From: Kiritimatiellia bacterium
GTDB taxonomy: Bacteria > Verrucomicrobiota > Kiritimatiellia > RFP12 > UBA1067
DNA length: 32,644 nt
Assembly (NCBI GenBank): GCA_017450695.1
Contig: JAFSTA010000226.1
Location: 1-32,644, forward strand
Direction: 5' to 3'
Shown here: in pieces, positions 3,112-32,644 of the stretch
How the letters are laid out: each line of letters starts with the position of its first letter
How positions within the stretch are numbered: position 1 is the first letter of the stretch
Notes under the pieces: model-generated
The model's database searches: none
Told to the model about the DNA's origin: nothing
What the model saw: only the letters and a program-made list of their open reading frames with translations
Translations under genes and position numbers: made by a program

Positions 3112-3195
3112 CTAACCACCTAACCACCCAACCACCAAACCACCTAACCACTTAACCACCTAACCACCTAACCACCTAACCACCTAACCACTTAA
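3112..3195 (-). repeat. Octamer array, copy 2 (G-rich on the minus strand)
   Basis: About ten tandem units of CTAACCAC with variants CCAACCAC and TTAACCAC, the reverse complement of the arrays at 202-273 and 22059-22144. Several consecutive units are identical, so expansion is recent. The stretch after it (3196-3374) holds nothing I recognise. Confidence 0.85.
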
Positions 3196-5465: not shown

Positions 5466-5661
5466 GATGCAATTTGGCAAAAGTAAAATCGCTACGCTTT
5501 GAAATGGTTCAACCTAAGATTCCTCGTTTGGGTTCTCACGCAGAGCCGCTTGAGGTCGCAGAGAAAATGCCGAAAACAAAGGCTTTTCAATCCCCCGCAC
5601 ACACAGAAAACGGATTCACCCAAATGGTGAAAGTCAGCAAAATTTCAATGCGCCATGATTC

Positions 5662-5731
5662 ACCACGGAACACACGGAATCACCGATCAAAAATTCGGAT
5701 GATTTTCCGTGTATTCCGTGTGTTCCGTGGT
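5662..5731. repeat. Perfect 19-bp inverted repeat of the CCACGGAAnACACGGA family
   Basis: ACCACGGAACACACGGAAT at 5662-5680 is matched exactly by its reverse complement at 5713-5731, with a 32-base spacer that contains further partial copies. The right arm continues into TTTTTCAAATTGTCCAAC, the same flank as at 2092, 9266 and 28413. The whole stretch 5406-6101 has no gene; it also holds the 5521-5552 motif, an AAGCGACAAGAGTG half hairpin near 5922, and AAATGGTT-type text. Confidence 0.9.
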
Positions 5732-6020
5732 TTTTCAAATTGTCCAACAGCGGTGAAATTGCCGAGCCGCCGAAAAGCGGAACAGATCAGGTCGATTGAA
5801 AGCCGCGTCAGCGGCGATTTAACCATTGAATCTTTTAACCATCCTTTCGTGTCTTTTCGTAATCGCGCGTAGCGCCCTCCTGCGTTGCTGCATGAGGAAT
5901 ATACAACAACACCCCGAAAAGCGACAAGAGTGCCAAGGGGAAAATTAAATCGCTGCGCTTTAAATGGTGAAATGGTTAAATGGACGAGGCACCGGCAAGA
6001 GTGTCGCTTCCCCGAAAGCC

Positions 6021-6101: not shown

Positions 6102-7841
6102 CTAGCGGATGATCAACTTCGATCCGTCGCCGTAAATGATGACGCGCGCGGCGGTGCTCAGGGTGTAGTTCGCGTTGTCGGTGAACACGAGGACGTCATA
6201 GGTGCCTGACAAGGGCTTCCGGTCCGAAATCACCAGCTCGCGGTTGACGGCGTTCGGGATCGCGACGCCATCCATCCGCCACTGGTAGGAGGTGGCGTTC
6301 GGCGCGTACACGGAGAGCGTAACGTCGCCGTTGTTGACATGGCGCATGGTCAGGGCATCGGGCTGCGTCACGATGGCGGGGCCGTCGCCGGTCGATGTTC
6401 CCGTCGCGATCGGACGCACCAGCACATAGAAGTTCTTCACGCTGTAGCTTGATGCGTTCCCCTCCTAGAAGGTCCAGTCGGGGTCTTTCTTCGCCGTGAA
6501 ATTCGGATTGTTTCCGATGCCGAGTCCGGGTGTGCGGAATTGCGCCGTGTTCCCTGAATGCCCAAAGGCGACCATAGAAAGGATGGTCTCCTGCGCCAGA
6601 TAATTGTGTACCTGCATCGAGCCGTGACCGCAAGCGGGAGCGGTTGCGGTCATGCTGTCACCAAAATCATAGTAAGACCCGTCCGCGCCGGGAATCCCCT
6701 TGTCATTCCCCGCCGCGAAGTTGTTCGGCCAGAACTCGATGTTGCCAGCCGGGAAACTCCCTGTTTGAACGGTGATATCGTTGTCGCTCGCCCCTGCATA
6801 AACGGTGAGGTTCGAGACGTAGCACTGGTGGAGAATCTGGCGTTCCACGCTTGGCACACCGAGTTTCGAGGCGTCCTCGCAGAAGGTGTCCATCCCGGCG
6901 AAAACCCACTGGTAGTGGTTGGTGTCCTGCAGTTCCATGCAGTAGGCCACGCGGTCATAACGGATACCCGCGTTGAACCGGCTCTCGTCAACTAGGTAGT
7001 CCGCGCCCGGATAGCTGTAGCAAACGCTGTCTTTGATCTCCAGCGCGTTCAGCAGCTGGTAGCCCCTCAACTCCGACACGTTCGACCGCGTCAGGAACGC
7101 GGGAAGCGTGGCGGGAGGCGCGACGACGGCCAGCGTCTTGTCCGCCGTGTACGGCGCGAGGGAGACGGTCAGCGAGTTGGTCGTGTTTTCCGCCAGCGGT
7201 TCCGCCAATGTCAGCAATACGTCGCGCGGTTCGGAAGCGGAACGCGCAACATCCTTGATCTGGATAGAGGCGTCGGCGAAGGCGTAACGGTCCGCCGCCA
7301 GCAGGGTCTTCGGCACGGCGGCCGGATAGGAGACGCACACGCGGTCGCGGGCAAGGCTGACGACCGCACGGCGCGGTGCCTCGACACCCATCGACAGTAC
7401 CTGCGGAATCTTCGCGCGGCTCACGAAAACGCAGAGGCGGCGGTGACTGTAGTTGCCGGCGTTGTCCGAGAAAGTCCAGTCGGTGACATCGCTACGCAAG
7501 GCACTGTTTCCGATACCAATCTGTACAGTGTTGCCGGCGTTGAAGTGGTTGTGTGCCCAAATCGTCTGCCGCGCGCCGAAGTTGTGGACCTGCATACAAC
7601 CATAGTTGCCCCCCGTATCTAACCGGTCTCCGAAGTCGAAATTATTGCCGCTGGCGTTGGGGATGTTGATCGCGTTGGGAGCACCGTAGTTCCGGTAGTG
7701 GAACTCGATGTTTCCGGTGGCAATCCCCTTTCCGGTCTGGATACCCGCGACGTTGGATTCCACATCGAGGTTCGCGACCGTCTGCTGGAAGGTCCATCCC
7801 GTCGGTACGCCGAGTCGTGTCGGATCTTGCGTCATGGCGTC
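6102..7841 (-). pseudogene. Remnant of a secreted tandem-repeat plus Ig-like domain protein
   Basis: One reading frame runs from 7841 to the TAG at 6104..6102, broken by a single in-frame TAG at 6467..6465. Two related blocks are visible. Block 1 (from 7841) reads DPTRLGVP...GNIEF...FDFGD...SMQVHN-like text...DWTFS. Block 2 (to 6468) reads DASKLGVP...GNIEFWPNNFAAG...YDFGD...GSMQVHNY...DWTF followed by the stop. In block 1 the residue after DWTF is Ser (TCG), so TCG to TAG is a one-base change. After the stop comes an Ig-like domain (VTQPDALTMRHVNNGDVTLSV...YQWRMDGVAIPN...SGTYDVLV). The 5' end, including any signal peptide and the first part of block 1, is missing; homology stops at 7839-7841, where the DUF4143 fragment begins on the other strand. 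Function is unknown; it was probably a surface or secreted protein. Confidence 0.7.
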
Positions 7842-8517
7842 TTACCTCAAGGACGTCCAGGAACGGAACAAGATACGGAACACGGCTCTGCTTGAAACCC
7901 TCTTCGATGTCGTCATGAGCAATGTCGGCCGACTTATGAACCCGACAAAGTTCGCCAACGCCATCCAGACCGTAGCCGGGATTCCCGCCAACCATGTGAC
8001 CGTCAAGAAACACCTTGAGTTCCTCCAGGAGGCGTATCTCCTTTCCATGTCCAAACGGTACGATGTCAGAGGGCGGCACTATCTCGACTACCCTGCAAAA
8101 TACTATGCCATGGACACCGGCATCCGCAACGTGCACATGAACTTCAGGCAATATGAACCGACCCACCTCATGGAAAACGCAATCTACAACGAATTGATTC
8201 GCAGGGGGTACGCCGTTGATGTCGGCGTGGCCATAGTAGAGACCTCGCACTCGAACGTTCGCGAGAAACGTCAGCATGAAATAGACTTTGTCGTAAACAG
8301 ATTTTCCGAGAGGATTTACATTCAGTCTGCATGGATGATTCCCGAGGAAGAGAAGCGCCGACAGGAGACCTTCTCCCTCAGGCATATCGGCGATTCCTTC
8401 CGCAAGATCGTCGTGACGGGCGACCCGTACGAAAAGCCGTGGATGGACGAAAGCGGCATCACCTTCATGGGCATCGTACCTTTTCTCCTCAACCCCCACT
8501 CGCTAGAAACGCTGTAA
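7834..8517 (+). pseudogene. C-terminal half of a DUF4143-containing ATP-binding protein
   Basis: From about 7840 the frame reads YLKDVQERNKIRN and continues through TLMNPTKFANAIQ-like text, HLEFLQEAYLL, a YYAMDTGIRN block and EIDFVVN (nuclease-like DUF4143 region) to a complete C-terminus KIVVTGDPYEKPW...GIVPFLLN. Such proteins are usually 400-450 residues with an N-terminal AAA ATPase (Walker A/B); here only about 226 residues remain and the whole ATPase part is gone. An ATG at 7834 makes a translatable frame, but it lies in the junction and has no Shine-Dalgarno sequence. Upstream in-frame text to 7708 is only the antisense of the neighbouring remnant. Full-length relatives are often genomically mobile stand-alone ATPases of unclear function. 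Confidence 0.8.
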
Positions 8518-8518
8518 C

Positions 8519-8850
8519 GAACCACAGACCAACACGTGGTTAATAAACAAGCCACTGACCAACACGGACACGCCACGCTCACGCTTGCGCCATTCTGAAT
8601 CAAGGCGAGCGTTAGCGAAGCCTGGCCGTGTATGTCCGTGGTGAATAAACGAACCACAGACCAACATGGACGCGCCACGCTTACGCTTGCGCCATTCCAA
8701 ATCAAGGCGTGCGTTAGCGAAGCCTGTCCGTGAATGTCCGTGGTGAATAAACGAACCACAGACCAACATGGACGCGCCACGCTTACGCTTGCGCATTTCA
8801 AAATCAGGGCGAGCGTTAGTGAAGCCTGTCCGTGACGTCCGTGGTTAACC
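8519..8850 (+). repeat. Three tandem 102-bp MITE-like elements plus a solo-end remnant
   Basis: Three units with an exact 102-base period (CCAACAxGGA at 8559, 8661 and 8763). Each begins with GAACCACAGACCAACATGGA-like text and ends with GTCCGTGAATGTCCGTGGT-like text, so the ends are inverted repeats of about 19 bases. The interior (ACGCTTACGCTTGCGC ... GGCGAGCGTTAGCGAAGCC) is also partly self-complementary. At 8519-8537 only the joined ends remain (ACCACAGACCAACACGTGGT). Two further full copies lie, in the opposite orientation, at 18034-18127 and 18339-18432. No protein is encoded. The stretch 8851-8988 is otherwise featureless. Confidence 0.85.
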
Positions 8851-9265: not shown

Positions 9266-9301
9266 TGTTGGACACTTTGAAAACCACGGAATTCACGGAA
9301 T
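9266..9301 (+). repeat. Half copy of the CCACGGAAnACACGGA element
   Basis: TTGGACACTTTGAAAACCAC continuing into GGAATTCACGGAAT, without the complementary right arm. It matches the half copy at 28413-28446 including the preceding TCTG. It lies in the gene-free stretch 9229-9721, which otherwise holds only the hairpins listed below. Confidence 0.75.
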
Positions 9302-9538
9302 ATGCCGCTGAAAGCACTTCATGCGACCACGAAAGCCTGACGCGGATCAAACTCTCGTCAGGACATGAAACCCCGCTAGCGTGGGACACGAAAAGACACA
9401 AAAGTTCTGGGCTGGGAGGCATCGTTTTTGATCTCACGCAGGGGCGCGCGGGGGGAGTGCGTTTCGTCGCGATCGTATTGCTGAACATGCGTTGCCTAGA
9501 AGTTCGGTGGTTCTGAGTTCTAAGCGAGACGGTCGGGG

Positions 9539-17927: not shown

Positions 17928-17983
17928 TCCCGAACGTCTCGCTCAGAGCTCGGAACTTATGGGCAAGCCGGGTAAGCATTACG

Positions 17984-18001
17984 GACGCGACGGGGCGCGT
18001 C
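17984..18001. repeat. GACGCG / CGCGTC palindrome
   Basis: GACGCGACGGGGCGCGTC followed by CCTCCC. An identical unit is at 18590-18607, and the reverse is at 32299-32316. Arms are GACGCG and CGCGTC with loop ACGGGG; other copies read GGTCGCG and CGCGACC, which is a coordinated change of both arms. Confidence 0.8.
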
Positions 18002-18004
18002 CCT

Positions 18005-18197
18005 CCCGATCTCTTCGCCTCCCTTTAAAGGAAACTACGGACGTACACGGACAGGCATCGCTAACGCTCGCCTTGGTCTTGAAGTGCGCAAGCGTAAGCG
18101 CGGCGCGACCGTGTTGGTCGGTGGTTCGTTTCGTTAACCGAAGACAACCCTTGTGTCGTCCTTGTTGTCCTTGTTGTCGTTTTTATCTCTCGCAGAG
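18005..18197 (+). repeat. 193-bp direct repeat, copy A (contains a MITE-like element)
   Basis: It matches 18310-18502 over 193 bases with no gaps and four substitutions, at a spacing of 305. It contains one full MITE-like element (18034-18127), in reverse orientation to those at 8519-8850, followed by TTGTGTCGTCCTTGTTGTCC-type text. The boundaries are sharp: CCCGATCTC on the left and CGCAGAG on the right. Confidence 0.9.
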
Positions 18198-18309
18198 ACG
18201 CAGGGCGTGATGCCCCATACCTTTGTGCCCTTTGTGTTCTTTGTGGCTAAAACAAACGGATGGATTCGCGGCTACGCCGCTCACGGGAGGAACGAACGGG
18301 AGGGTCGCG

Positions 18310-18502
18310 CCCGATCTCTTCGCCTCCCTTTAAAGGAAACCACGGACATACACGGACAGGCATCGCTAACGCTCGCCTTGGTCTTGAAGTGCGCAAGCGT
18401 AAGCGCGGCGTGTCCGTGTTGGTCGGTGGTTCGTTTCGTTAACCGAAGACAACCCTTGTGTCGTCCTTGTTGTCCTTGTTGTCGTTTTTATCTCTCGCAG
18501 AG
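18310..18502 (+). repeat. 193-bp direct repeat, copy B
   Basis: Second copy of 18005-18197. Substitutions relative to copy A lie in the MITE-like ends (ACTACGGACG vs ACCACGGACA) and near GGCGTGTCCG vs GGCGCGACCG. The palindrome at 18590-18607 follows. Confidence 0.9.
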
Positions 18503-18643
18503 GCGCGGAGACACGGAGGAAAGGGCGGGAGGGTCGCGCCCCGCCGCGCCCCGTCCATCGATCTGAGGTTCATGTCCACGCGGGGAACGGACGCGACGGG
18601 GCGCGTCCCTCCCTTTTGCGGCTTCGTGAAGGAAACCTCCTCC

Positions 18644-22027: not shown

Positions 22028-22058
22028 TGTTGCTCTTTCAACAAAAAGTGGGACGGAT

Positions 22059-22144
22059 GGTTGGGTGGTTACGTGGTTGGGTGGTTCGGTGGTTGGGTGG
22101 TTCGGTGGTTAGGTAGTTAGGTGGTTTGGTAGTTGGGTGGTTGG
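22059..22144 (+). repeat. G-rich octamer array, copy 3
   Basis: About eleven units of GGTTGGGT, GGTTCGGT, GGTTAGGT or GGTTTGGT. The array starts 32 bases upstream of the gldG-like -35 box. Confidence 0.85.
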
Positions 22145-28412: not shown

Positions 28413-28446
28413 TGTTGGACAATCTAAACCACGGAATACACGGAAT
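28413..28446 (+). repeat. Half copy of the CCACGGAAnACACGGA element
   Basis: TTGGACAATCTAAACCACGG followed by AATACACGGAATTT, with TCTG before it as at 9266. The stretch 28400-28748 consists of repeats. Confidence 0.75.
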
Positions 28447-28536
28447 TTGTCGCTCAAGGCGCGGTGGTTAGCTCGGAAGACGCGCTTGCTTGTCCTCCGT
28501 AGCTTTGCGCAGGATGGATCGCGTCCGCAGCGTAGC

Positions 28537-32273: not shown

Positions 32274-32298
32274 CCATTTCCAGCGCAAACCCGGGAGG

Positions 32299-32644
32299 GA
32301 CGCGCCCCGTCGCGTCCGATTCCAACAACGCCATGCGGGGAGAATGGCGCACAACGGTCGCGACGGGGCGCGACCCTCCCGCTCTCTGCGGCTCCGCGAC
32401 TCTGCGTGAGAAAACTACCCGGTTCGACGGCGGGGGCGCCGTCGCTACGCACAACGGTCGCAACGGAGCGCGACCAACGTCCGCATCCCATGATACCGTG
32501 TGGGACAACGGCGCACAACGGTCGCGACGGGGCGCGACCCTCCCGCTCTCTGCGGCTCCGCGACTCTGCGTGAGAAAACTTACCCGGTTCGACGGCGGGG
32601 GCGCCGTCGCTACGCAGACGGTCGCGACGGGGCGCGTCCCAACA
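32299..32644 (+). repeat. Dense array of two palindrome families at the right edge
   Basis: Palindromes of the GGTCGCGACGGGGCGCGACC type lie at 32299, 32356, 32456, 32520 and 32620, alternating with GACGGCG/CGCCGTC hairpins at 32426 and 32591. A composite unit (palindrome, CTCTCTGCGGCTCCGCGACT, CTGCGTGAGAAAACT, GACGGCG hairpin, GCTACGCA) occurs twice with a period of about 164, differing by one T and a few bases. The array runs off the window. No gene is supported after 32273. Confidence 0.85.

Follow-up and report, generated by a model that had tools for sequence, protein, structure and literature searches.

The organisation closest to the one described here is that of TIRtrons and REPtrons, in which a gene (TIRYT or RAYT) is accompanied by dispersed copies of its own flanking repeats (PMC3733652). 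In a TIRtron, a tyrosine transposase is flanked by TIRs that belong to dispersed TIR families, and REPs are defined as palindromes tagged with GTAG or CGTC (PMC3733652). Another small gene, S23/IVP, is associated with an intervening sequence of 23S rRNA that has been proposed to be a selfish element (PMC4990558). Here, we compare these systems with a palindromic element of roughly 93 bp found in the window, meaning the whole stretch of 32,644 nucleotides that was analyzed, and with GxxExxY, a gene that lies between ends of the same kind. As in a TIRtron, the inverted repeats on either side of a gene also form a dispersed noncoding family, and the proposal in both cases is that the gene acts in trans to form the repeats. 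The TIRtron protein is of the HUH/Y1 type, however, whereas GxxExxY (PF13366/TIGR04256) is of the PD-(D/E)XK type, and the ends here are built of units phased at 8 to 10 bp in a class that spans many phyla. Like REP/REPIN-RAYT systems, the repeats are high-copy-number intergenic palindromes with a cognate gene and occur both in tandem and singly, but the element is 93 bp rather than 20 to 40 bp, its consensus (43 copies) carries no GTAG or CGTC tag, and there is no RAYT association. Bacterial MITEs such as ERIC, Correia, and RUP are similarly noncoding, about 100 bp long, bounded by terminal inverted repeats, and both dispersed and tandem. The present element differs from them in that no target duplication was found, no insertion sequence with the same ends was seen in what is a fragmented assembly, and the candidate partner is a nuclease-like protein. 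Finally, the S23/IVP intervening sequence shares with GxxExxY a small orphan gene between inverted repeats, but it sits in rRNA and encodes a four-helix protein, and the dispersed IVP genes found here have repeats of 7- to 8-bp units.

The window contains five full copies of a palindromic 92- to 94-bp element and one end-to-end remnant. Repeat and match analysis placed three full copies in a tandem array on the forward strand (8551 to 8643, 8652 to 8745, and 8754 to 8846; period 102, 90% matches), and the other two lie on the reverse strand at 18033 to 18126 and 18338 to 18431, such that the copies, period, and orientations of the original prediction were all recovered. The two ends form an imperfect inverted repeat (ACCAC[A/C/T]GACCAACACGGAC and ACCACGGACRTACACGGAC), the interior (CGCTTACGCTTGCGC ... 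GGCGAGCGTTAGCG) is self-pairing, and the entire element forms a single predicted hairpin of -44.9 kcal/mol with RNA parameters, approximately 5.5 standard deviations below block-shuffled sequence. Both sequence and fold thus confirm the inverted ends and the self-complementary interior. Covariation within the family is weak (one pair), and Rfam contained nothing matching in the window. Integron attC sites were considered by eye only and set aside, as the tandem copies are about 10 bp apart and cassettes are absent. Elements of the family lie largely between genes, form tandem arrays, and are often found next to other repeats. We note that an open reading frame with a DUF4143 domain and an apparently truncated N terminus (7708 to 8517) ends in a stop codon 2 bp ahead of the array.

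How the remnant and the clusters arose can be read in part from their surroundings. At 8520 to 8541 on the forward strand, the sequence has a left end joined directly to a right end (AACCACAGACCAACAC/GTGGTT), consistent with internal deletion of one copy. The joined ends had been read as a trace of excision or internal deletion, but excision is not required, as we infer that deletion at the base of the hairpin would yield an identical product. The two reverse copies both fall within a segment of about 209 bp that was duplicated together with the element flanks (17993 to 18201 and 18298 to 18506, 95.7% identical) and therefore reflect local duplication. The three tandem copies at 8551 to 8846 are also local duplications. 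Local duplication accounts for both clusters in the window but not for the family as a whole.

The 93-bp element is dispersed. Its own genome (5.0 Mb in 287 contigs) contains 47 matches on about 21 contigs, either single or as arrays that reach six or seven copies, and thus the further copies called for by the original prediction exist. With one mismatch allowed, the end pattern gave 71 matches compared to 1 for a reversed control. Many copies sit at contig ends, where the assembly breaks at these repeats, and the true copy number is probably higher. Flanks of the 21 clusters had in common only stretches of at most 138 bp that came from other dispersed repeats, so that segmental duplication alone does not explain the dispersal and the concern that copies might always share the same flanks does not hold across clusters. 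Moreover, the element is present in 9 of 60 related genomes and, being short, noncoding, bounded by terminal inverted repeats, and dispersed in many copies, has these features in common with MITEs. Target duplications, which had been suggested as a check, were sought around 35 related elements without a convincing excess of direct flank matches; of the many tests made, the strongest (d=2, k=4) gave 3 matches compared to 0.85 expected by chance. Lack of a target duplication is typical of REPs and unlike most DDE MITEs. Comparison with a genome of the same genus (G001) gave no clean empty site for the copies at 18.0 to 18.4 kb: the gene to their right is kept at 86% identity and the element is absent, but the sequence beyond that gene is wholly different from the window. 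Separately, one locus (L028) carries two inside-out units, at 1449 to 1561 and 1767 to 1882, each consisting of a right half, a spacer, and a left half of the 93-bp element; the units are broken in the hairpin loops and lie inside a duplication of about 319 bp.

The ends of the element belong to a wider architecture. A search for the both-ends pattern found 44 stretches in a species-level genome collection, and in rumen Kiritimatiellae it was the 93-bp element itself that recurred. Beyond Kiritimatiellae, mostly the end architecture alone is common, and it was found in Lentisphaerae, Aminicenantes, Nitrospinae, Nitrospirae, Acidobacteria, Phycisphaerales, Desulfobacterales, Calditrichota, Saprospiraceae, and others. 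At each end, the architecture has CAC-R-GAC units spaced at 10-bp intervals, for which the 93-bp family has CCAC-R-GAC-NN-ACAC-GGAC, and the form outside Kiritimatiellae is mostly TTAG-CCACAGACnnACACAGACnnACACAGAC ... plus its inverse, with the unit repeating every 10 bp. Up to 170 exact ends occur per genome, compared to 0 to 1 in reversed controls. The pattern search found no element in viral contigs.

Clustering of the open reading frames around the 44 element loci revealed no widely shared neighbor, but two GxxExxY genes were directly beside elements. GxxExxY was picked for a targeted test on the strength of these two genes and of a prior suspicion, and loci were taken from 12 element-bearing genomes, the genome of the window, and its family. 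Scoring assumed no motif: at each locus, the upstream flank was matched to the downstream flank after reverse complementation of the latter. Most GxxExxY loci are bracketed by inverted repeats of 8- to 10-bp units, and the units (including CACGGAC, CACAGAG, CACGAAT, CGCAAAG, and CAGGATT) differ between loci. With flanks taken from the ends of the open reading frame, an inverted match of at least 40 was found at 35 of 58 GxxExxY loci and at none of 29 PIN-domain genes of the same genomes (Fisher P of about 4e-9, a value that overstates independence, as some loci are close kin, such as L157/L161 and L170/L171). With flanks taken from the domain edges, 50 of the 58 loci scored at least 30. Repeats were inverted only at 29 of the 58 loci and direct only at 1, and we conclude that the GxxExxY gene lies between inverted ends. 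Moreover, triple phased units were present on both sides of 26 of 58 GxxExxY genes and of none of the 29 PIN genes. Genes of the S23/IVP four-helix family (PF05635) had repeats of mostly 7- to 8-bp units on both sides at 18 of 27 loci. Nine of 21 genomes with phased ends, some with 30 to 40 of them, had no detected GxxExxY gene, and incomplete metagenome-assembled genomes could explain part of this number.

Brackets of GxxExxY genes match solo elements in three genomes, namely, that of the window (through a sister family), G015 of the same taxonomic family (through the 93-bp family), and Gemmatirosa. In G015, locus L033 has a GxxExxY gene at 75 to 416, the 93-bp element on one side at 465 to 561, and a truncated half of this element on the other at 1 to 49. 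The inverted repeats around GxxExxY genes thus occur as dispersed solos too, and for the 93-bp family this arrangement was found at that one locus. Of the two GxxExxY genes in the genome of the window, neither lies between ends that match the GGAC ends of the 93-bp family exactly. One of the two (L092) is bracketed by AACCACGGAATACACGGAACACACGGAA and a near-inverse of it, and the GGAC ends differ from these sister-family ends mainly by one base per unit. Ends of the L092 type numbered 16 in 103 kb of sampled sequence from the same genome, the two of L092 included, compared to 0 in a reversed control. In the window itself, the forward strand carries two sister-family palindromes, at 2107 to 2179 (ends CCACGGAACACACGGA, as at L092) and 5661 to 5732 (AACCACGGAACACACGGAATACACGGAA running inward from the right end), and two single ends, at 9282 to 9302 (CCACGGAATTCACGGAA) and 28427 to 28447 (CCACGGAATACACGGAA, which also brackets L092). 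The three-unit end of another variant, with the architecture of the GxxExxY brackets, lies on the reverse strand of the window at 18219 to 18247 (GCCACAAAGAACACAAAGGGCACAAAGG). Loci L116 and L098, with the brackets CCACGGAC and CCACAGAC, are further direct links between gene and repeats. Inverted ends with 8- to 10-bp phasing that match GxxExxY brackets therefore occur in the same genome for the sister family and in the same taxonomic family for the 93-bp family. A gene bounded by such ends, as the original prediction had sought, does exist, but it encodes a PD-(D/E)XK-type protein and not a known transposase.

Bracketing of GxxExxY recurs in the complete replicons of Bacteroides finegoldii, Bernardetia, and Gemmatirosa, and five other plasmid-borne GxxExxY genes have repeats that are weaker or one-sided. 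In Gemmatirosa, full palindromes lie on either side of the gene, and a solo palindrome that shares their ends is found about 8 kb away. Another GxxExxY gene of Gemmatirosa (L265, 986 to 1321) has a full three-unit palindrome of CGCGGAT units just downstream. B. finegoldii carries the bracketed unit between radA and a gene for an FAD protein. The same two genes are 13 bp apart in Parabacteroides distasonis, where the unit is absent, and the stretch inserted in B. finegoldii starts and stops within a few bases of the brackets. Moreover, Sphingomonas has the order fabD-GxxExxY-fabG and a relative has fabD-fabG. As judged from sequence, presence and absence at both sites fit insertion of the unit, mechanism aside.

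GxxExxY is a small protein of unknown function encoded in 80 of 115 genomes of this bacterial family. Residues D63, E73, and K75 are invariant in 17 diverse members, and the invariant D-x9-E-x-K together with E and Q residues is the signature of a PD-(D/E)XK nuclease. No relative was found in the PDB by sequence, an AlphaFold model of one GxxExxY protein was poor (pLDDT of 47), and a library of defense proteins gave weak matches only. Viral contigs searched with three single-protein queries and phages searched with one query yielded no relative.

How GxxExxY might act on the repeats can be outlined. We favor, with a probability of a little under 0.6, the combined reading that the 93-bp units are REP/MITE-like nonautonomous palindromes served in trans by GxxExxY and that they belong to a broad class in which a short unit is repeated two to four times per end with a phasing of 8 to 10 bp. 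The complete element would be an end, the GxxExxY gene, and an inverted end, and solo palindromes, those of the window among them, would be gene-less copies of that bracketed unit. GxxExxY would recognize the phased units or the hairpin that they form and cut at or near them, after which the element would be copied to, or inserted at, a different intergenic site and gene-less copies would be moved in trans. Tandem copies may reflect unequal recombination or repeated insertion. The original prediction of a noncoding dispersed element that depends on a trans-acting protein is supported by this reading, but its suggestion of a REP-associated or insertion sequence transposase as the partner is not. 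A larger claim is more tentative: GxxExxY may perhaps be the mobility nuclease of a widespread and undescribed class of small bacterial elements, in which a PD-(D/E)XK gene lies between helically phased inverted triple repeats and tens to hundreds of gene-less hairpins occur per genome across several phyla, with S23/IVP and its repeats of 7- to 8-bp units as a parallel system in the same genomes.

Alternatively, the repeats might be ordinary hairpins, such as terminators, mRNA stabilizers, or processing sites, that spread by recombination, with GxxExxY being a passenger or a gene that inserts beside hairpins or is stabilized by them. Strong folding, a largely intergenic location, tandem arrays, and frequent adjoining repeats would all be expected of such hairpins, as might the bracketing of S23/IVP genes; the intervening sequence RNA around S23 has a terminal stem (PMC4990558). 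We consider this explanation unlikely, however, because the brackets are nearly always inverted rather than direct, the repeat class differs from one gene family to the next, PIN genes from these genomes lack brackets, and the difference between radA and the FAD protein gene, with brackets at its edges, fits insertion of a unit.

Could a known transposase move the repeats instead? Repeats of the REP/REPIN or TIR type would depend for their movement on a tyrosine (HUH) transposase, either RAYT or TIRYT. The elements are indeed palindromic, intergenic, and free of target duplications, the window's genome carries a Y1_Tnp gene, and TIRYT genes flanked by TIRs of repeat families are known (PMC3733652). 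RAYT genes (PF01797), searched for in many of the same genomes and their relatives, are bracketed by other, REP-like hairpins, however, and none of 22 had phased units on both sides. Moreover, the Y1_Tnp gene of the window's genome (L046) lacks inverted flanks (score of 17), and the 93-bp consensus lacks an unpaired foot of the GTAG or CGTC type, all of which makes a tyrosine transposase improbable. We note that the frame of L046 (G000:C137:7013-7192), a Y1_Tnp/RAYT-like gene, apparently contains translated short repeats of the GEGAVAT type, as at 32338 to 32636 in the window. Slightly more improbable still is an origin as MITEs from a DDE insertion sequence that was lost, or left unassembled, in its full-length form. 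Small size, inverted ends, and absence of coding capacity suit such MITEs, and many copies do lie at contig ends where the assembly breaks. End matches pair at element length, however, with no longer element seen in the window's genome, itself a fragmented assembly; the 35 related elements lacked target duplications; and an end architecture that recurs across phyla in many variant units does not resemble a single insertion sequence family.

A link between the repeats and GxxExxY, the reading that we prefer, would matter for several reasons. GxxExxY is common, and a tie to a repeat class gives a protein of unknown function a testable role. The link would also account for many of the short repeats that lie between genes in uncultured bacteria, repeats that break assemblies and generate false open reading frames, and would add a nuclease-type partner to the few bacterial repeat-gene pairs, now mainly REP-RAYT. 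The literature searched, mostly outside subscription journals, contained no published link of GxxExxY to repeats, and novelty is therefore provisional. GxxExxY is scarcely named in that literature: one paper mentions it in passing and not in connection with repeats, and the other is a study of an algal virus genome. Together, the repeats and GxxExxY suggest a little-noticed kind of mobile DNA pair.

Other repeats are present in the window. Octamer arrays (GGTTGGGT / CTAACCAC) at 203 to 273, 3112 to 3195, and 22058 to 22144 are of the type that brackets S23/IVP genes in related genomes, and it is possible that these arrays and the four-helix-bundle gene constitute a second repeat-gene pair. Finally, a dispersed repeat (ACGGACGCGACGGGGCGCGTCCCTCCC) occurs at 17981 to 18022, 18587 to 18613, 32292 to 32323, 32354 to 32395, and 32518 to 32559 and is also found in several related genomes.
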